Shown here one piece after another: positions 29,198 to 39,394 of a DNA stretch of 64,000 nucleotides (positions are counted from its first letter, which is position 1; every line of letters begins with the position of its first letter). The notes under the pieces were generated by a model. It had not been told where the DNA came from and made no database searches. It was given only the letters and a program-made list of their open reading frames with translations. The translations under genes and the position numbers were made by a program. The stretch is from Parabacteroides sp. PH5-46. Lineage in GTDB: Bacteria; Bacteroidota; Bacteroidia; Bacteroidales; Tannerellaceae. The stretch covers positions 186,001 to 250,000 of the forward strand of contig NZ_JARXXA010000003.1 in the NCBI RefSeq assembly GCF_029892785.1. Direction: 5' to 3'.

Positions 29198-29240
29198 GTC
29201 AGAAGAATTGAAAGATAAAAGATGATGCCGGAAAATAAAG

Positions 29241-29350
29241 GTGTGCGAGCGTTCAAAAAATAGCATGCATGCATTTTTGAAAAGGCATGCGTACGTTTTG
29301 CAAAACGCATGCATGCGATTTTTAGCCCGCAAAAATGCCGTTAAACAGTG
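29241..29350. repeat. Palindrome array with 22-bp period (locus B)
   Basis: Five 22-bp units begin at 29241, 29263, 29285, 29307 and 29329. The three central units start with GCATGC (GCATGCATGC, GCATGCGTAC, GCATGCATGC). Spacers are A/T palindromes, the middle one being the perfect GTTTTGCAAAAC (29295-29306), which is also a centre of larger symmetry. It occupies the gap between the TelA gene end and the ftsK promoter and may act as a terminator-like fold. Confidence 0.7.
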
Positions 29351-29353
29351 GGT

Positions 29354-30364
29354 TTAAACGGATAGTTTTTTCCTCCATTCGTTTTCTATGTTTAACAGTT
29401 CTTTTTCGGCCGAAAGGCGCTTTTGTCTTCCTTCCTGCTGAATGGCCAATACGTCGTCTATCGTAGCAAAAAGTTCGGTATTTACCTTTTGTAAGGTCTC
29501 TACATCTACGATACTTCGTTCGTTTTCTTTGGCTATTTGCACACTTGAGGTATGGAGTATCTCGCTGTTGCGGCGCAACATCTGGTTCGTGGCATCTGTT
29601 ACAGCCCGTTGTGCTTCCAGCGCTTGTTGCGAATGAACGAGCCCTAAGGCCAGTACCATTTGGTTTCGCCAGAGAGGTAGTGTGTTTACGATGCTTGACT
29701 GTATCTTTTCCATCAGTACGGTACTGTTGCTTTGCACTAATCGTATCTGTGGGGCCAGTTGGAATGAAATCATGCGGCTTAGTTTTAAGTCGTGCAATTT
29801 CTTCTCTAGCTGGTGTAACTGATCCTTTTCCATGTCGGACAGGTTCTCCGGATTTGTTTCTGCCACCTTATCTTCTCCGGCGTAGATGTGAAGTGACAAG
29901 TCTTTGTAACATTGCTCGTTTTGTTCGTATAGTTTATCAAACAGATGGATGTCTTTCAGTAATGTCTGATAATGTTTCTCCAGTTGCCGCTCTACCTGTA
30001 CAACATTCTTTTCAATCTTTGAGTATTCTGCCTTGATACGTAATATTTTCTTCTTCAGGCTTTGGAAGAAAGATAAGATGCCCGGCTTGTTGATGGATTT
30101 GTCAAATGTTTTCAAATCGGTAACCAGTCCGGATAGGATATCGCCCACTTCGCCTATATCCTTGTTCCTTACCTGTGTTAATACTGTCTCGGAAAAAGAA
30201 ACCATCCTGTGTTGGGATTCGGCGCCATACTGGATGATATTGCTTTTATTTGTCAAATCTATTTTTGCTTTATACAGGCTTATCTTTTCGTTGTCGGCAG
30301 GTGTTAGCTTGTTTCTTTCGATGGATAATTCGGGAGAATCGACAGGTAATATGGGATGTTCCAT
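29354..30364 (-). CDS. TelA-family (toxic anion resistance) protein
   Basis: A 336-aa, largely alpha-helical, coiled-coil-rich cytoplasmic protein matching the TelA family. The conserved C-terminal part is clear: LPLWRNQMVLALGLVHSQQ, AVTDATNQMLRRNSEIL, AKENERSIVDVETLQ and AIQQEGRQKR. TelA/KlaA proteins are named from tellurite resistance, but most chromosomal members are general stress proteins of unknown mechanism. It is last in a five-gene cluster, 12 bp after the ATPase. Confidence 0.9.
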   Translation of the reverse strand: MEHPILPVDSPELSIERNKLTPADNEKISLYKAKIDLTNKSNIIQYGAESQHRMVSFSETVLTQVRNKDIGEVGDILSGLVTDLKTFDKSINKPGILSFFQSLKKKILRIKAEYSKIEKNVVQVERQLEKHYQTLLKDIHLFDKLYEQNEQCYKDLSLHIYAGEDKVAETNPENLSDMEKDQLHQLEKKLHDLKLSRMISFQLAPQIRLVQSNSTVLMEKIQSSIVNTLPLWRNQMVLALGLVHSQQALEAQRAVTDATNQMLRRNSEILHTSSVQIAKENERSIVDVETLQKVNTELFATIDDVLAIQQEGRQKRLSAEKELLNIENEWRKKLSV

Positions 30365-30376
30365 GATCTTTATTTG

Positions 30377-32422
30377 TTAGTTTATTAATCCTCTGTTCTT
30401 TAAACTCTGCATGTACGCCATTGATTCGGCATCGATATCCAGCATATCCGATTCGAAGATACGGCTTAACTCTTGTTCAAACGCTTTATATGTAAGTTCA
30501 ATGGCTTCTGCAACCCGCTGGCGGGAGGCCTCTATTTCCGGGGTATCTATGCCGGAAACTTCCAGTGCTTTGTACTGCCGCAGCAGTTTAACTACTGTAT
30601 CTGTATGTCGCATGGAGAATACCTCTCCGGCTGTATGATCTTTTTCCTGGATGATATGTGCTATTTTGCTCATCTGTTCCAACTGAGACTTTATAGATAC
30701 ATTTTGAATCTCTTTCTGCCAGTATTTTAATTCGGCAGAGAGGGTCTTGCGTTCTAGGATGTCTATTTGTGCCTCCAGCAGGTGAATAAGGGGTTTGATC
30801 TGGCTGTTGGGAATAAAATCTATGTTCAATTTTTCGTTTCCGAGCAGTATATGTAAAACGCTGTACTGAGGCCCACTCTTATAACTCATCTCATTGATCT
30901 GTCCGTATGGGAACGACTTGATTTTCTTTTGCTTGCTGATAAACAACAAACGCTTCTCCGTAGCAATCAGTGTCCCGGCCTCATTATTAAAAGAGCCGAC
31001 AATCGATTTCAAAACATTCTCATCATCCAGTAGTGCATGTGATAGCTCTTCTATGATCTCTTGTGGGAGCAATACGTTCTTGAACTGTTTTTCGATCCGC
31101 TTGATCTTTTTCTGTTTTATTTCATCTTCCATTTCAAAGGTTTCTTCTCTTTCGTCGATGATCTTTATTTCGTCTACCAGTTTCTTTTTATCTACATTAG
31201 GATTCTGGCGGATAATATTCAGTATGTTAAGGAAATCACGGATCACCTCCCGAGGGGTAAGGAAGTCCGAAGCTCCCGGTTTGTTGTATATCTCTTCCAT
31301 GAAGCTGTGGATATCTTCATTGCTAAAGCCGATCTCTACCTGATAGTTAAAGTTAAAGATATCTCTCAGGTTATAAAGCAACACAAATATTTCATCATGG
31401 CTTAGCGGCATCAGACGGATCACCGGCTGGGCATAATCGCGCAGCTCTGCCGTTTCAAACTTATTTACTTTCAGGCGTGTTTTCAACGCATCGTAACTAT
31501 AGAAGCCTTTCTGCTTATCTTCCAACACATCAGTGGTTCCGGCTATATTGAAGAACAAATATTCTACTTTCCCTTGAAAACAATCATTGTACATGCTCAA
31601 CAAGGTTTCATAATTCTTCTGACGCATACCGGGATGTGCTATTTTGTATAGATTGACTGCCTCGTCCAGATTGATAAGCAAGCCGCTGTATCCGATATTG
31701 ACAAACAAACGGCAGAAGTTTTTAAGCATATCGTAGTAGTTTCTGTCGTTTACAATTTCGCTTACTCCCAGATCCGAGCGGGCTTCTGTTTTCGTGGTGT
31801 ATTCGCCTTTCAACCATCTGAGTGCATTTTTGCGTAAGAAATCGTCTCCGGAAATAAATCCCTCATAATATTTAACGATAGCCAGTCCGAAATCAAAACC
31901 GCCTACTTCGGTTATCTGATTGACTGTTTGTATGATGCTATTCTGTATCAGGCTAAAGTACTTAGCATCCCTGATCTCTGCTAATGGAATTTGGTGTTCG
32001 GTAGCTGTTTGCACTATTACTTGTTCGATCCATTTCTCAAGCAGGATATGCAAAGCACCCCCTTCCGGCTTGGTCTGGATAGCTATATTATCCATTAATG
32101 CGGTATATAAGGCTTGGGCTTTCCCGTCATTGGAATATAAACGTCTGTGTGGAGTAAAATCGGCTGTAGCAGTAACGAATTTCTGTTTTAAAGCTACCGT
32201 ATTCAGCAAATGCAGCATGAATGATTTTCCGGAGCCAAAATCTCCTATCCAGTATTTCATCATGCTATGTCCGTTCTTCACTTCTTCCAGCGCTTTTAAT
32301 ACCATTTCTATTTCATTGCTACGGCCTACGGTAATATGCTGTACGCCTATTTTGGGTACTACGCCACTGATCAACGAATTTATGATAGCTGTTGCTTCCT
32401 TGGGTTTTACTTTTATCGTCAT
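30377..32422 (-). CDS. BrxD-like (DUF2791) P-loop ATPase with an inserted PH-like domain
   Basis: A 681-aa protein. The N-terminal half (1-400) matches the DUF2791/BrxD ATPase family: GVQHITVGRSNEIE, Walker A GDFGSGKS (60-67), Walker B LLINLDEA (248-255), and TPREVIRDFL (389-398). Residues about 462-555 look like a bacterial PH-like domain (LLDDENVLKSIVGSF, ATEKRLLFISKQ, IKSFPYGQI). A helical tail follows, with EKDHTAGEVFSMRHTDTV. BREX BrxD proteins lack such an insert in my knowledge. It overlaps the TerB-C-like gene by 4 bp and precedes TelA by 12 bp. No BREX methylase or PglZ gene is nearby. Confidence 0.75.
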   Translation of the reverse strand: MTIKVKPKEATAIINSLISGVVPKIGVQHITVGRSNEIEMVLKALEEVKNGHSMMKYWIGDFGSGKSFMLHLLNTVALKQKFVTATADFTPHRRLYSNDGKAQALYTALMDNIAIQTKPEGGALHILLEKWIEQVIVQTATEHQIPLAEIRDAKYFSLIQNSIIQTVNQITEVGGFDFGLAIVKYYEGFISGDDFLRKNALRWLKGEYTTKTEARSDLGVSEIVNDRNYYDMLKNFCRLFVNIGYSGLLINLDEAVNLYKIAHPGMRQKNYETLLSMYNDCFQGKVEYLFFNIAGTTDVLEDKQKGFYSYDALKTRLKVNKFETAELRDYAQPVIRLMPLSHDEIFVLLYNLRDIFNFNYQVEIGFSNEDIHSFMEEIYNKPGASDFLTPREVIRDFLNILNIIRQNPNVDKKKLVDEIKIIDEREETFEMEDEIKQKKIKRIEKQFKNVLLPQEIIEELSHALLDDENVLKSIVGSFNNEAGTLIATEKRLLFISKQKKIKSFPYGQINEMSYKSGPQYSVLHILLGNEKLNIDFIPNSQIKPLIHLLEAQIDILERKTLSAELKYWQKEIQNVSIKSQLEQMSKIAHIIQEKDHTAGEVFSMRHTDTVVKLLRQYKALEVSGIDTPEIEASRQRVAEAIELTYKAFEQELSRIFESDMLDIDAESMAYMQSLKNRGLIN

Positions 32423-33606
32423 CCTCTTAGTTGTTCATAATATGTTTCATTCAACATATAATACTCCTCTTCTTCTTCAATTAAAACGTCGTCGAGTTCG
32501 TCAAAATGTTCTTCATTGATGCTTTGAATCAATTGATTCATAAATAGCCCTTTCGATCGTGCAAATATATCAACTTCTTCTTTATTTAGCTTATAATCTT
32601 TATTTATAAATAGCTGTAGTAACCCCTCCTTGTTGTCTGTAACCTCTGTTAGCGGTTGTTGTGGGATGGTTACAGACTCCGGTTCGTCGGCCAGAATATC
32701 ACTTAAGATACCTGCTACTTTAGCCTGTTTTCCAGCTGCTTCCCGTATCGCAGTAATATCTAATCTGACTTTTTTTCGTTGCGAGATCTCCAAATTATCA
32801 AACTGTTTGAGAGCTGTATTCAGGTTCTTACTTGTTAAAAGTTTGCTGCATACCTGATTGAATTGTTGTTCTTCTTTTGTATTCCGGAAGAGTAGTTTTG
32901 CGTTCGGTTTACTTATCTTTTTGTGTTTAAATGTATCCGAAAGTGTTTTTACATGCAGATAATGCATGTAAAATTTTAGGGAATATTCTTTGTCTTTGTG
33001 AACCAGAAACTGATGAGCCAGGAGGTAGATTTCGCGCTCAGTAGTTACACGTTTATCAGACATTGTTGCCAGTTGGCAGATATCGTTATAAAACTGCTGG
33101 ACATTATCTGTGTCAAAGCTGTTTATAAGGTTTTGATATCGCACTTTCCATGCATCTCCACTATTATAGAAACGCCTGTCGCTCTCTCTTGTTAAAGGCC
33201 TGACTACGACAGTTGCCCGTTCCTGTATTAAACGGGTTGTTGCTGTGTCTATCTTTTCTTTAGCCGGGCTTTCTATGGTATCCTGGAAGCTTAATAGGTC
33301 GAGAGTCGTTTTTTTACATGTTTGAAGGATAGCTTCACTAAAAGCGAAACTATCCTTCCAGCATTTATCAGCGATAAGGGTTCTTCTTACGTCAATGAAT
33401 AATGTAACTATTTCTCTTTTACAATATTCGTTGGAACAGAGATTACGCCCCATCAATTGAAGGGCATCTTCAAATTCGGTACGTGTTAACTTATATCCAT
33501 CCCGAAAGCTATAGTCTTTGGATTGCTCTCTTTTTTTCTTTGTAAGTTGGAAGTATATATTTGTAGCAATAGCAATACCGATCAACAATAAGATAAGCCC
33601 CATCAC
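32419..33606 (-). CDS. Membrane-anchored protein with TerB-C-like C-terminus
   Basis: A 395-aa protein with one N-terminal membrane helix (about 1-20, MMGLILLLIGIAIATNIYFQ) and a mostly helical cytoplasmic body. The C-terminal about 65 residues (LLQLFINKDYKLNKEEVDIF, LMNQLIQSINEEHFDELDDV and IEEEEEYYMLNE in outline) resemble the TerB-C domain seen in Ter-type stress systems. The middle region is not recognised. Its stop overlaps the ATPase start (ATGA), suggesting the two products work together at the inner membrane. Confidence 0.6.
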   Translation of the reverse strand: MMGLILLLIGIAIATNIYFQLTKKKREQSKDYSFRDGYKLTRTEFEDALQLMGRNLCSNEYCKREIVTLFIDVRRTLIADKCWKDSFAFSEAILQTCKKTTLDLLSFQDTIESPAKEKIDTATTRLIQERATVVVRPLTRESDRRFYNSGDAWKVRYQNLINSFDTDNVQQFYNDICQLATMSDKRVTTEREIYLLAHQFLVHKDKEYSLKFYMHYLHVKTLSDTFKHKKISKPNAKLLFRNTKEEQQFNQVCSKLLTSKNLNTALKQFDNLEISQRKKVRLDITAIREAAGKQAKVAGILSDILADEPESVTIPQQPLTEVTDNKEGLLQLFINKDYKLNKEEVDIFARSKGLFMNQLIQSINEEHFDELDDVLIEEEEEYYMLNETYYEQLRG

Positions 33607-33615
33607 TAAAAATCC

Positions 33616-35310
33616 TTATTTCATTTTAATTAGTAACTGACGCTTATTTATGTCTGCCCATTCCACCATCAGGTTGCGGAAAGCTGCATAGTCGGCAGGA
33701 GTTATCAGTTGCTTTTTCATCTCCAGATTGCGTTTTACTTCTACTGAGTTGCCGTTTTGTGTAATAGTATAGCTTGCTTTGCCCGCTGCATTATCTGTTG
33801 TTTTAGTTGTTGCAGGAGTACTCAGTTCCATACCTGCCGGTAGTTGGATTGTGTAGCTAATGCTTTCTGTTGCTTTATATGGTACCAGCAGATGCTGATT
33901 TCGTTTGCTGTTATAGTTCTTGTAAGCAGCATTGGAAATACTGTTCGGAGCCTCCGGTAAGCTGAGAAGGATATATCCGTTATTGTTCTTCAGTTTTTGT
34001 TCTGTTTTCTCGCTAACGGTTGCTTTTCCTTTATTTGTGTAAGGGATAAAGGCCTCTCCGATAGTCGCATTTGCCTGTATGTCAGCTTTATCTGGGGATA
34101 ATGTGATGGTATACGTATAATCCAGCTTGGTAGAAGGAGTTTGGAAGTTTACCTTTTTTCCAGGATTAGTCAGGCTTATATACTGGGCATATTCACTATA
34201 CCAGCCGGCATCCGACATCTTCATCTGTTTGGGAGTCAGCAGGAATTGTTTACCGTCTGCAGAAGCCAGGATAAACCAGTCGGCAACAGCGCTTAATCCG
34301 TAACAATTCTGGTCGGCAGGGGTGTAGTATGCGGCTACTGTTTCTGCTTTTATTCCGCTAGCGTTCAACAGAGCAGCCAGCATGTTCAGTTTTTCTACTT
34401 CCGTACCGTAAGCAGTGGTAACAACATCGTCTGTAGAACGGATACGAAAAGCTGTTTCCTGCAAAGACAAACGGCTGAATCCTACATTATCTGTTACATG
34501 TTTCAGCAACGCATATATCTTTTCCGTATCTGATGTAAGGCCTTCTGTTAGTGTTTCCGACAAAGACAACATCGGCATATCCCGTTCCGGAGCAAACTGC
34601 GCATTCAGGGTTTCGAGTGCCTTTTGATTGGAAGCATAGGTAGAGGCCAACAAGATTTGCCTGTCTCCTCCCAAAGCCGTAACCTGCGGAGCCATAGAAG
34701 CAGCCGGTAGGTTGCGGATCTTCCAACTTACTTGTTTTACACCGTTTGCTGTACTTTCCGAGGGCTTAACGTTTGAATTAACTAATGAGTAAAACAGTGG
34801 TTTACTTTCTGGAACAGAGATTGTAAGAGTATAATCCTTTACCGGAGAGGTCTGTTCTATCGGCTCACATAGATCCAGCTCGGGAAGGTATCCCGCTTTG
34901 GAAACAATGGAGTAATCCAGGTAGATGGTAGCGCCTAGCTCCAATCCGGTATGTACAACAACCATCTCTTTCAGGTGATTATAAGCCGGAGCGTTAGCTG
35001 CCTGACGGGGAAGCACTTCCACAAAGGCATTTTCCGGGGTCTTTATAATGGTACCGTCTTTCTGCTTGGTGTACGATGTATGTATCTTTAATTCCTGAAA
35101 CTTTGGATTGTAGACAATGAAGCTCTCGCCATAGGTACGGTTCATAGCTGTATGTGTGAAGATCGTCAGCTCCATATTATAACGAAACTCCTGGATACCG
35201 TCCGAATGCAGCGTATATGTCTTGGACAATACCCCATACTCCGCCTCCGATGCAGCAAACAAAGAAACCGAAGCAATTAATAACAAAAACAGAATATATA
35301 TCTTTTTCAT
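33616..35310 (-). CDS. DUF3857/transglutaminase-fold protein with a degenerate active site
   Basis: A 564-aa exported protein (signal peptide 1-19). It has an N-terminal DUF3857 beta domain (about 25-240) and a transglutaminase-like fold (about 265-370). In the expected Cys position of the fold the sequence reads AYGTEVEKLN instead of the GVCKD of the neighbouring paralogue, and the His and Asp positions (ADWF, LLTPKQ) also deviate. It is therefore likely non-catalytic, perhaps a binding partner. 9 bp upstream of the TerB-C-like gene and 10 bp after the active paralogue. Confidence 0.75.
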   Translation of the reverse strand: MKKIYILFLLLIASVSLFAASEAEYGVLSKTYTLHSDGIQEFRYNMELTIFTHTAMNRTYGESFIVYNPKFQELKIHTSYTKQKDGTIIKTPENAFVEVLPRQAANAPAYNHLKEMVVVHTGLELGATIYLDYSIVSKAGYLPELDLCEPIEQTSPVKDYTLTISVPESKPLFYSLVNSNVKPSESTANGVKQVSWKIRNLPAASMAPQVTALGGDRQILLASTYASNQKALETLNAQFAPERDMPMLSLSETLTEGLTSDTEKIYALLKHVTDNVGFSRLSLQETAFRIRSTDDVVTTAYGTEVEKLNMLAALLNASGIKAETVAAYYTPADQNCYGLSAVADWFILASADGKQFLLTPKQMKMSDAGWYSEYAQYISLTNPGKKVNFQTPSTKLDYTYTITLSPDKADIQANATIGEAFIPYTNKGKATVSEKTEQKLKNNNGYILLSLPEAPNSISNAAYKNYNSKRNQHLLVPYKATESISYTIQLPAGMELSTPATTKTTDNAAGKASYTITQNGNSVEVKRNLEMKKQLITPADYAAFRNLMVEWADINKRQLLIKMK

Positions 35311-35320
35311 AAGTTCTTTT

Positions 35321-37285
35321 TTATTTTGTTAATATCACGTATTCTCCGAAGCTCTTGTAGTTGTTTACGGCAGTACGGAAACCGTCCCAGTCGGAGGCAT
35401 CGTATACACGTTTCTTTAGTGTCAGCTTCTGATAGAGATTAAGTTCGTTTCCCTCTTGACGTAAATAGCCTTCAAAGTCGGCTGCTCCGCTTTGACTGGA
35501 TTCTCTTTGGGCTGCTGTTGCCAATTTATACCCTTTGGGTAGTTGGGTGATTTCCTTTAATTCTACCAGGCGTGAGCAGGCATCTTTAAAGCCGTATTCC
35601 CGCTTTTCCATGTTTGTATTGATACGAAGGAAGGATTGTACGGAAGTATACAAATTATTCATCACCATTGGTTTGAATAACATTTCTTCTTTACCCATAA
35701 TGGCATAATCCGGTATTTCGTAGTGGAAGGTTATCTTGATAGGCGCTGCCTGATAGTCTTTGGGGTTCTTGCCATAGTCTACACTGATTAACTTAGCTTT
35801 AGGCGAAACAGCTAATAATTGCTGCTCCATTGTATTTTGCCATTCAGTCTGCCAGCCTTGTGTAAAGATGCGGCGGATATTACTGTCCGACTGTCCTTCG
35901 GCGGTAATGGTGAATTGTCCGCTTAATGTACCTTTTGTATCTAACTTATTGGTAGCTATGATGCGGACAAAGTGGTTTTCGGGAGGTGAAAGAGGTGTTT
36001 CAAGTAAGTCAGATCCCTCAGGAACGCCTGGTAAATAGTTTTGTTGCTGTTCGGCACTGCTCCACAATTCGCGTACGAAAGGAACCCAGGTCGGGTCGAG
36101 TGGCATATAGGTTCCGTTTGATAGCTTAACAACTGCTACGCAATGGTTGAAGTGGTCTGCCGGAATCTTTTCCACCCGGCTACCAGCCATCGTCATAGCG
36201 GGGTAAGACTCAAAGCCAGCCATGCGCAGGAAAGAAACCAATGTTCCGGCAATATCTTTGCACACGCCGCAGCGGTCTGTATAATTCATCTTTGTATTGT
36301 GCAGGGTATAGCCTTCACCTTTGCCCATGGAGATACCGGAATAGCGGATATTATCAGCCACCCAGTGGGTGAGCACTTCAATCTTCTCCATTTCGGTTTT
36401 CTTTCCTTTGATCAGCTCGTCTACCTTTTTCTGTGCCTCGGGTAGTGCGGCGAAGCTGTCGTAGTCTTCGTTTACTTTGTAGAACCACAGCGATTTATCC
36501 TGCCACTTGGGAGTAGATGACATAAACAATTTGGGAGCCGCATCGAACAGGTCTACCATATTGGCTTCCCGCTTGAACGGTAGCATATCCCTCATGGCAA
36601 AAGTATATGTTTTGCGATTATTGTCTTCAAAACGTACGGAAGAAGAACATTCGCCCTGATAGAACTGGAATTGAAGTTCTTTTTCCATCGGGACAGATAC
36701 CTCATATACTTTACGAACGGTAGGTTCAGATGCCCAGAATGGAACAATGTCATAAAATTGGCCGCGCATGGGTGGTATGAAGCGCGATTCGTCATCGTCT
36801 CCACTCAGCAAAGCGTATGTAAATCCTTTTTTAGCTATTTCGTATTCCACGATGTCACCGGGTTCCAACCAGCCGATTTCCAACATGATCTGTCGAGCTC
36901 CCCAAAAGATAGCACGTGCAGGAGCCGCATAGTCACAAGCCTTGCTAACATCAAGACCTACCACATCTCCGTTGGCACGATAGACAACCGCATAGCGAAA
37001 CTCAGCAAAAGCTGTCAGCGGATCATAATCATATATTACCGTACGATTGTTAACTGCACCATTAGGCGTCAGCACTTTAAATGCTTTATAAATAGCAAAA
37101 GAGCCCGACCCGGTTGGCTGAACCGTAACCGATATACTGTCGAGCAAGGTCACACTATCAAAGCCTTTATACGCTTCCGGCTTTTCCAGAGTAGGATCTT
37201 GTGGAAATTGGCATACTTCTCCGTTCTGTGCATATGCAGATACACTGAAAAGAATACCTAAACAAATAATTATCAAGTGTTTCAT
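35321..37285 (-). CDS. DUF3857 and transglutaminase-like protein
   Basis: A 654-aa exported protein (signal peptide 1-19). DUF3857 domain (about 50-230) and a transglutaminase-like core (about 295-405) with an intact triad: Cys342 in RCGVCKD, His381 in DHFNHC and Asp397 in LDPTW. A C-terminal beta domain follows. Homologues are common in Bacteroidetes, acting in the periplasm or at the outer membrane, with unproven substrates. First gene of the five-gene operon; only a weak promoter-like TATCTTAG lies just upstream (about 37325). Confidence 0.82.
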   Translation of the reverse strand: MKHLIIICLGILFSVSAYAQNGEVCQFPQDPTLEKPEAYKGFDSVTLLDSISVTVQPTGSGSFAIYKAFKVLTPNGAVNNRTVIYDYDPLTAFAEFRYAVVYRANGDVVGLDVSKACDYAAPARAIFWGARQIMLEIGWLEPGDIVEYEIAKKGFTYALLSGDDDESRFIPPMRGQFYDIVPFWASEPTVRKVYEVSVPMEKELQFQFYQGECSSSVRFEDNNRKTYTFAMRDMLPFKREANMVDLFDAAPKLFMSSTPKWQDKSLWFYKVNEDYDSFAALPEAQKKVDELIKGKKTEMEKIEVLTHWVADNIRYSGISMGKGEGYTLHNTKMNYTDRCGVCKDIAGTLVSFLRMAGFESYPAMTMAGSRVEKIPADHFNHCVAVVKLSNGTYMPLDPTWVPFVRELWSSAEQQQNYLPGVPEGSDLLETPLSPPENHFVRIIATNKLDTKGTLSGQFTITAEGQSDSNIRRIFTQGWQTEWQNTMEQQLLAVSPKAKLISVDYGKNPKDYQAAPIKITFHYEIPDYAIMGKEEMLFKPMVMNNLYTSVQSFLRINTNMEKREYGFKDACSRLVELKEITQLPKGYKLATAAQRESSQSGAADFEGYLRQEGNELNLYQKLTLKKRVYDASDWDGFRTAVNNYKSFGEYVILTK

Positions 37286-37354: not shown

Positions 37355-39394
37355 TTATGCTATTGCTATTTCTTTGCAGGCGGCACGATCTATTTTACCG
37401 CTTGGAGTGAGGGGGATGCTTTTAACAGCTATGATATGTTTGGGGTATTCGTATGAGGGGAGCAGCTCCTTGATTTGTTGCTCTGTTTCTTTATTAATGA
37501 TGTCTGTTTCTATCAGTAAGACAATGGCTTCTCCGAATTTGGGGTCAGGAGCGGAGGTAATGGCAAAGGGGAATGATAGGATAGTAGATAGCTTCTCTTC
37601 CAACACTTCTGCCTGTACTTTGATACCTCCTGTGTTGATGGTATTGTCTTTCCTTCCCAGGATGCGGAAGCTTCCGTTGAGGTATATCTTGGCTATATCA
37701 TTCGTTTCCAAAGGTTCATCGCATATTTGGAGCGCTTCTATTATAAGGGTGTTTTCGTTAGACAGACGGAGTGTGACAGCCGGGAATGGGGTATAGGCTG
37801 ATGAAGCCTCTTGGCCATTCAAACGTCGCATGGCGATATGAGACAAGGTTTCCGTCATGCCGTAAGTAGCATATATTTCGTTTGTGAAGGATTGTAAGGC
37901 TTTTTCCAGAGCCGGATCAATCATTCCTCCTCCTATAATCAGCTTCTTAATCCTACCCAGTCGTTCTTTTTCTTCCGGGATTTGCAATGAGTTGTAGACT
38001 TGCTGAGGCGTCATTGCTGCGAAATCAAGCGGTGTATCCACATCCTTTAATGGATGTCCGGAGGCTTTCCTGACTATTAATTGAAGCTCCTGTACAAGCG
38101 CACGTACAACCATCATCTTGGCTCCGATATATTGCAGAGGCATACACAGTAAGGCGGTATCTCCCTTTTGCAAATCAAGGAAAGAACACGTTTGTCGCGC
38201 ACTGTAAATCATCTTTTCTTTCTCAACAGAAAGTGCCTTAGGACAGCCCGTAGAGCCGGATGTCTGCACTGTTACAAAAGGTGACTCATCAAACCATTCC
38301 CCCAAAAAAGCAAAGTATTCCTTATACCCCTCCGTATAGTCCTGATCAGGCGAATAACAAAGAAAGTCTTTCCGTATAGCAAGCGGCATCTCAATATTAT
38401 TGATGAAAAGCCCCCCGGTACCCAGCCCTTGATAAATAGCCCCGTGCTGCGTTCTGCGTGTTCCGTTCTGCGTCAGCTTCGCTGACCACTGAGCAATCGC
38501 ATTCAGCCCAATATTGGATTCTAAGGCAGAGGTAATCCACCAACCAATCCCTTGTTTTTCAGCTTCCGCAATCCACTCTTCACAGCCCGACATACCTCCA
38601 TGCAGAGAGGGTTTTAGTATAATGTATTGAGGCTGGATCGTTGTTAGGAGGCGGTGTTTCTCTTCTAATTGGTTACAGCCGATCAGTTCTTCGTCTAATG
38701 CAATGGGGATGGGCGTTTGGCGGCATAGTTGAGCCATGTCCTCCCATTGTCCGGCATGGATGGGTTGCTCTATTGAGTGGATATCCAACTCTGCCAGCCG
38801 TTTCAGTTTATCCAAGGCCGTATCAGGGGTAAAGGCGCCGTTGGCATCTACGCGGAGTTCAATCTCTTTTACGCTAAAGTGCTGTCGGATATAGCGAAGC
38901 AAGTCCAGTTCCTCTTCAAAGTTAATGGCTCCGATCTTTAATTTGATACAGCGGAAACCGGCCTTTAACTTCGCCTCAATCTGCTCCAGCATCCTTTGGT
39001 GACTTCCCATCCAGATCAGCCCATTGATAGGAATACCAGCTTCTCCGCGCGAGAAAGGAGTATCCCACAAAGCAAAGCTATCTGTTTCAAAATGCCGGAA
39101 AGCCGTTTCCAGCCCAAAGAGCATCGAAGGGTAGGGGCGAAGCACCTCCTTGTCTAAAACACCCGTCCGTTCAATCTGCCGACAAATATCCTGCAAGATA
39201 TGCCCATAGTCCGGCAGATCATCACAACTCAGATTCGGCAGAGGGGCACATTCTCCAATTCCCCACTTCTGATGTTCCGCTGACTTTATTAGTACGTACC
39301 AGGTTTTACGCGTTGTATAGATGCCTCTTGATGTTCCAGCAGGTTGGCGGAACATCAATTGAAAATTGAAAATTGAAAATTGAAAGCGGGTCAC
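37355..39394 (-). CDS. MenC-MenE fusion: o-succinylbenzoate synthase and o-succinylbenzoate-CoA ligase
   Basis: A 679-aa protein. Residues about 14-350 are an enolase-superfamily Men[45 protein letters not shown] and SALESNIG supply the metal ligands and catalytic Lys. Residues about 365-679 are a MenE-type acyl-CoA ligase: [40 protein letters not shown] and TPSGKIDR. It thus joins two successive steps of menaquinone synthesis. The frame starts at GTG 39394 (GTGA overlap with menB); the first 13 codons come from a repeat. ATG 39355 is an alternative start. Confidence 0.92.
38443..38474. repeat. Repeat-derived stretch inside menC-menE
   Basis: The sequence GCGTGTTCCGTTCT (38457-38470) within CTGCGTTCTGCGT repeats is also found in the 3' end of the RlmD gene near 60204. 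It is translated here as NGTRRTQHG, between conserved MenC segments. Confidence 0.5.
39357..39385. repeat. Tandem ATTGAAA repeat at the menB/menC junction
   Basis: Tandem GAAAATT units cover 39357-39385. The reading frame passes through them and encodes [10 protein letters not shown], the N-terminal strand of MenC. Confidence 0.65.

Follow-up and report, generated by a model that had tools for sequence, protein, structure and literature searches.

Three adjoining genes in the window (the whole 64,000-nucleotide stretch of DNA analysed, part of a 4.42 Mb Bacteroidales assembly) look like a variant of a Shango-type defence machine that has been directed at the membrane. Specifically, comparison with related loci supports the idea that a sngA-sngB pair of the Bacteroidota Shango type exchanged SngC for a PH-XpaC-TelA module. 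Read from its sequence, the actual unit comprises a membrane-anchored TerB-C protein, a SngB-like ATPase and TelA. These are the last three genes in a packed row of five, and the two genes before them appear to be an old, independent exported pair that the trio adjoins in one lineage.

The five open reading frames occupy 29354-37285 on the minus strand and, as the earlier note had claimed, they share that strand with gaps of at most 12 bp and one 4-bp overlap. In the order of reading, D1 (35321-37285, 654 aa), D2 (33616-35310, 564 aa), the SngA-like TerB-C protein that opens the unit (32419-33606, 395 aa counted from a GTG whose following codon is ATG), the ATPase (30377-32422, 681 aa) and the TelA that closes it (29354-30364, 336 aa) are spaced by 10, 9 (12 from the ATG), -4 and 12 bp. 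Pfam recovers each of the domains that had been named, that is, DUF3857 and Transglut_core in both D1 and D2, TerB_C, BrxC_BrxD (formerly DUF2791), bPH_3 and TelA. Likewise, the signal-peptide-like N-termini of D1 and D2, which had been called exported, are visible in the sequence, and the placement of the TerB-C protein in the inner membrane agrees with a clear N-terminal membrane segment (hydropathy 2.31). Two features had gone unremarked, namely the PADLOC matches to SngA and SngB and the likeness of the ATPase C-terminus to XpaC (PF10112).

These genes do not lie in a defence island; in the window they have menaquinone genes, ftsK, a LolA-like gene and trxB around them. In the menaquinone cluster adjoining D1, menC-like and menE-like parts lie in one 679-aa ORF (37355-39394) that is possibly a fusion. 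Between TelA and ftsK, at 29240-29330, there is a palindromic repeat, GCATGCATGC, with good RNA folding (z -2.8); the pattern around it has 107 matches in the genome, often as close pairs, against 11 for a reversed control, and the repeat is a dispersed REP-like element. A promoter scan found sigma-70-like sites at no more than chance level, and only three of eight loci have a Bacteroidota TAnnTTTG box in the 100 bp upstream of the three-gene unit.

It is informative to examine the first two genes on their own. D1 is an exported DUF3857/transglutaminase-fold protein and D2 an exported DUF3857/transglutaminase-fold/DUF3858 protein related to PDB 3kd4. Candidate Cys, His and Asp residues occur in D1 within CGVC, DHFNH and LDPTW, D2 lacks a cysteine at the position that is catalytic in transglutaminases, and the two may form an active/inactive pair. 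Orthologues of D1 are common among the 41 genomes compared (its own and 40 relatives), and D2 follows D1 in twelve further genomes, drawn from the genus, the family and the order. Only one of these, the Tannerellaceae MAG G017, which is the closest carrier of the same genes, continues with the TerB-C, ATPase and TelA genes. In two genomes of the same genus (G010 and G006) D2 abuts ftsK, leaving an empty site. The window has a similar ftsK start with a similar promoter-like TACCTTTG box, and there the 4.3 kb unit separates D2 from that box. Conservation of the five-gene order across relatives, which the earlier note had proposed as a check, thus breaks down from both directions, with D1-D2 mostly found without the other three genes and the trio found without D1-D2 in six genomes. 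All five genes occur together only in the window species and in its congener G017, in a comparison where many of the same-genus genomes are incomplete MAGs, and the order is genuine in these two species but lineage-specific. The block in G017 is split over two contigs; D1 is preceded there by a PDDEXK_9/AAA-ATPase-like gene and TelA is followed by a LemA gene, in place of the menaquinone genes and ftsK of the window; because the flanking genes differ in this way, a lineage-specific link between D1-D2 and the trio is possible. The LemA gene (L045:1820-2377, about 260 bp after TelA) may be an extra envelope-stress neighbour in G017.

The resemblance to Shango lies in the first two products of the unit. 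The TerB-C protein carries a TerB_C domain (PF15615) at aa 277-394 (32425-32778; 5.9e-15, 56.2 bits against a cut-off of 26.3) and matches PADLOC SngA at 7.1e-23; a SngA match is present in all eight members of the family sample, which consists of eight loci with the window included. The ATPase matches BrxC_BrxD in Pfam (4.9e-139) and SngB in PADLOC (2.2e-161, 536 bits). Its P-loop core, placed by PADLOC SngB and alignment at aa 1-423 (31154-32422), is 65-73% identical to canonical Bacteroidota SngB, and in the alignment both the Walker A motif GDFGSGKS (aa 60-67) and the Walker B-like INLDE (aa 250-254) are conserved. The description of this protein as a BREX-type ATPase does not hold up, in that it reaches 142 bits where the NCBIfam BrxD cut-off is 350, and in PADLOC it fits Shango SngB far better (536 versus 140 bits). 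Judged by these profiles, the TerB-C protein and the ATPase are relatives of SngA and SngB and not of BREX, a relationship that was overlooked when the combination was said to resemble no described system.

Beyond its core, the ATPase bears a bacterial PH domain (PF14470, bPH_3; aa 465-549, 30776-31030; 1.2e-12), found in all seven of seven members, and then a helical, XpaC-like tail (aa 560-681, 30380-30745) that lacks the membrane hairpin of XpaC. The XpaC profile itself (PF10112) scores 23.7 bits on the window ATPase against a Pfam cut-off of 29.8; however, the tail matches at 41% over 117 aa (E 8e-29) a protein of genome G162 that passes the PF10112 cut-off and adjoins a bPH protein, and hhalign comparison with an XpaC pair (prob 93.5, E 2.4e-7) aligns the tail to the C-terminal half of XpaC only. 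The structural model of the ATPase (mean pLDDT 58.7) is too poor for a fold search, with the PH domain modelled as seven strands and a helix. TelA matches PF05816, a family found in all eight members, at 3.3e-94 (316 bits, cut-off 30), and its model is all helical, with long rods predicted at a mean pLDDT of 72.5; searched against the PDB, this model returned generic helical rods and no match at E <= 0.001. Among solved structures, a sequence match was found for none of TelA, the ATPase and the TerB-C protein.

Shango is an anti-phage system of the TerB-like SngA, the ATPase SngB and the helicase SngC for which phage restriction has been shown in Pseudomonas and E. coli (PMC10250203), and SngC clusters with other defence helicases (PMC12278908). 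A canonical Bacteroidales locus, L062, has all three proteins confirmed by PADLOC. In each of 66 readable canonical loci SngC lies beside SngB, and none has TelA, a PH domain or the XpaC tail; six SngB-like loci combine the PH-XpaC tail with TelA and lack SngC, and no locus has both arrangements. To these can be added G017, whose first contig ends after the tail-bearing ATPase and whose TelA is on the other contig, and five SngB-like loci that are cut by contig ends or too distant. SngC is absent beside the unit in every fused locus with a readable downstream side, and no SngC orthologue exists in the window's own genome, whose helicases are generic ones no more than 28% identical over the motor domain. 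Since SngC is absent, the unit falls outside Shango itself. Furthermore, because the fused ATPases form one clade with 100/99 support inside the Bacteroidota SngB sample, their fusion is best explained, on this tree, as having arisen once.

Genomes of 84,980 species were scanned with exact peptides, a method that could overlook distant members, and this yielded seven more fused ATPases of full or almost full length, in Bacteroides sp. 224, Bacteroides sp. 51, Dysgonomonas alginatilytica, Dysgonomonas macrotermitis, a Tannerella MAG, a Symbiothrix MAG and the Tannerellaceae MAG G017. In the six carriers apart from G017, the TerB-C protein comes before the ATPase and TelA after it at sites without D1-D2, with a YdjM gene between the TerB-C and ATPase genes in Dysgonomonas alginatilytica. 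The distance matrices of the three proteins are congruent (Mantel r 0.94, 0.80 and 0.88, with 0 of 2000 permutations as high). Over seven or eight loci the ATPase has a mean column identity of 77% and TelA one of 67%; the TerB-C protein, at 42%, is the fastest-evolving of the three, a trait that would suit a sensor. The Symbiothrix MAG has, 41 bp after TelA, a gene (L076:6135-8702) for an 855-aa SF1 helicase carrying DUF2726; it resembles Mokosh helicases (PADLOC MkoA 5e-51) and could be either a defence gene of its own or a substitute helicase.

The unit occupies fixed chromosomal places in sister species (the two Bacteroides, 224 and 51, and the two Dysgonomonas) and is not in defence islands, a pattern more like that of a stress system than of mobile defence. 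The full-length ATPase was found in none of 50,697 phage records and in no viral contigs, and the 690 plasmids with a match include none covering 80% of the protein, the best spanning the SngB part only; TelA has two distant matches in viral contigs. The full-length fused ATPase is rare among genomes, occurring in one of 393 Bacteroidales genomes (its own) and in one of 18 other same-genus genomes.

The added part has a recognizable counterpart elsewhere. Envelope stress switches on XpaC-TelA operons, and mutation of telA confers sensitivity to nisin (PMC12791056; PMC3139573); Aravind and colleagues place TelA in sub-membrane structures hindering the entry of phage or xenobiotics (PMC7824862). 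Separate XpaC-TelA pairs, followed by flotillin-like genes, can be read from the sequence of two Bacteroidota genomes, G251 and G161, and a third separate pair, in G420, is 34% identical to the window in the XpaC-like C-terminus and 51% in TelA, so that the window TelA is closer to that of G420 than to that of Dysgonomonas (47%). The simplest history suggested by these sequences is one in which SngAB acquired an XpaC-TelA module. In two Bacteroidales from the same family, a small membrane-type protein and two flotillin-like genes come after an XpaC-TelA pair (L064:6062-11317 and L065:2337-7733), making up a conserved membrane-stress operon. In another Bacteroidales genome (L063:6697-8303) a membrane XpaC-family protein is followed by a bPH-SHOCT protein, and the two resemble the ATPase tail split into two genes.

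How might such a unit work? We think it somewhat probable that it is a Shango-derived system whose ATPase would act at the inner membrane via TelA, in defence against phage or envelope damage. The TerB-C protein, anchored in the inner membrane, would receive a signal of stress or infection and switch the SngB-like ATPase; the PH domain and XpaC-like tail would dock the ATPase at the membrane's inner face and couple it to TelA; and ATP-driven assembly or release of TelA would reinforce, remodel or close the membrane, a change that could counter phage entry, bacteriocins or other envelope damage. The trigger would be phage, bacteriocin or general envelope damage, among which the sequence does not discriminate. 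A more specific version, which we offer tentatively, is that a nucleic-acid output became a membrane output, with the TerB-C sensor and the SngB-type ATPase driving assembly of TelA rods on the inner membrane; such an ATPase and scaffold might bear some resemblance to the pairing of AAA ATPases with proteins of the ESCRT or PspA type.

It is also worth considering that the unit may not be directed at phages at all. An SngAB-like switch could have been recruited to drive XpaC-TelA in an envelope-stress housekeeping module that would help mainly gut Bacteroidales to withstand bacteriocins, bile, host peptides or metals. The standing of XpaC-TelA as envelope-stress genes, the stable sites in sister species outside any defence island, and the lack of a full-length ATPase in phage records, phage contigs and plasmids are all consistent with this; however, so rare and patchy a distribution is unusual for housekeeping, and two of the three proteins have anti-phage nearest kin, and we regard it as a real but rather unlikely alternative.

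Other readings fit the data less well. The earlier note pictured a single complex of all five gene products across the envelope, in which D1-D2 would supply the periplasmic part; the linkage of TerB-C, ATPase and TelA and the membrane theme survive from that picture, but the five genes as a unit do not. Although the short gaps, and the adjacency of the same five genes in G017 despite differing flanks on both sides, speak for it, the eleven genomes with D1-D2 and no unit, the six with the unit and no D1-D2, and the empty site at ftsK in G010 and G006 make a five-gene complex improbable. It is more improbable still that the locus is a degraded Shango system, with SngC lost and TelA an unrelated neighbour: SngC is indeed missing both beside the pair and genome-wide, yet the identities of the ATPase and TelA are high with motifs conserved, the gene order is constant, the histories are congruent, and the family of the tail includes separate proteins that adjoin TelA elsewhere. 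Least credible of all is that the unit is part of a true BREX or Ter system, as might be supposed from the Pfam name BrxC_BrxD and from the links of TerB_C and TelA to Ter. Profile searches of the window's own genome return PF10923 once and PF05816 once, so that a second PF10923 protein (BrxC) is absent, and TerD is absent as well; for BREX, that single gene and the low BrxD score already amount to a refutation.

The natural replacement of a helicase by PH-XpaC-TelA suggests that SngA-SngB is an interchangeable sensor-switch core with exchangeable outputs. The swap gives a handle on SngAB sensing and on TelA action, neither the Shango nor the TelA mechanism being described in the literature searched, and the gene fusion ties the XpaC-TelA envelope-stress module to a defence system. 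On the practical side, detection tools that require SngC will miss fused loci or label them incomplete. Targeted literature searches, outside whose scope lay a 2012 Ter-systems paper (PMC4104200) that could conceivably already mention the TerB-C/DUF2791/TelA neighbourhood, found no description of the SngAB-TelA arrangement.

Set beside known systems, the unit shares something with each of several and coincides with none. With the BrxC/BrxD ATPases of BREX it shares the Pfam ATPase family PF10923, but its ATPase lies far under the BrxD cut-off and has no second PF10923 gene in the genome for company. With Ter systems (TerB/TerD/TerC/TelA) it has the TerB-C and TelA domains in common, whereas its genome is without TerD and a ter operon is missing at the locus. 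Like the XpaC-TelA pairs (Listeria lmo1966-lmo1967, Lactococcus llmg_1115-llmg_1116, Bacillus yaaN), it encodes TelA together with an XpaC-type helical domain; unlike them, it has that domain joined via PH to an ATPase, with no membrane hairpin of its own, and a SngA-like gene comes first. The closest likeness is to Shango, with which it shares SngA-like and SngB-like proteins in the same order and the membrane anchoring of SngA, an N-terminal transmembrane segment being present in 28 of 70 canonical Bacteroidota loci versus all eight of the fused ones. It differs from Shango in that its SngA-like protein is shorter than most canonical SngA, its SngB-like ATPase bears PH and XpaC-like domains, and TelA follows that ATPase in a unit without the DEAD/DEAH (SF2) helicase SngC.
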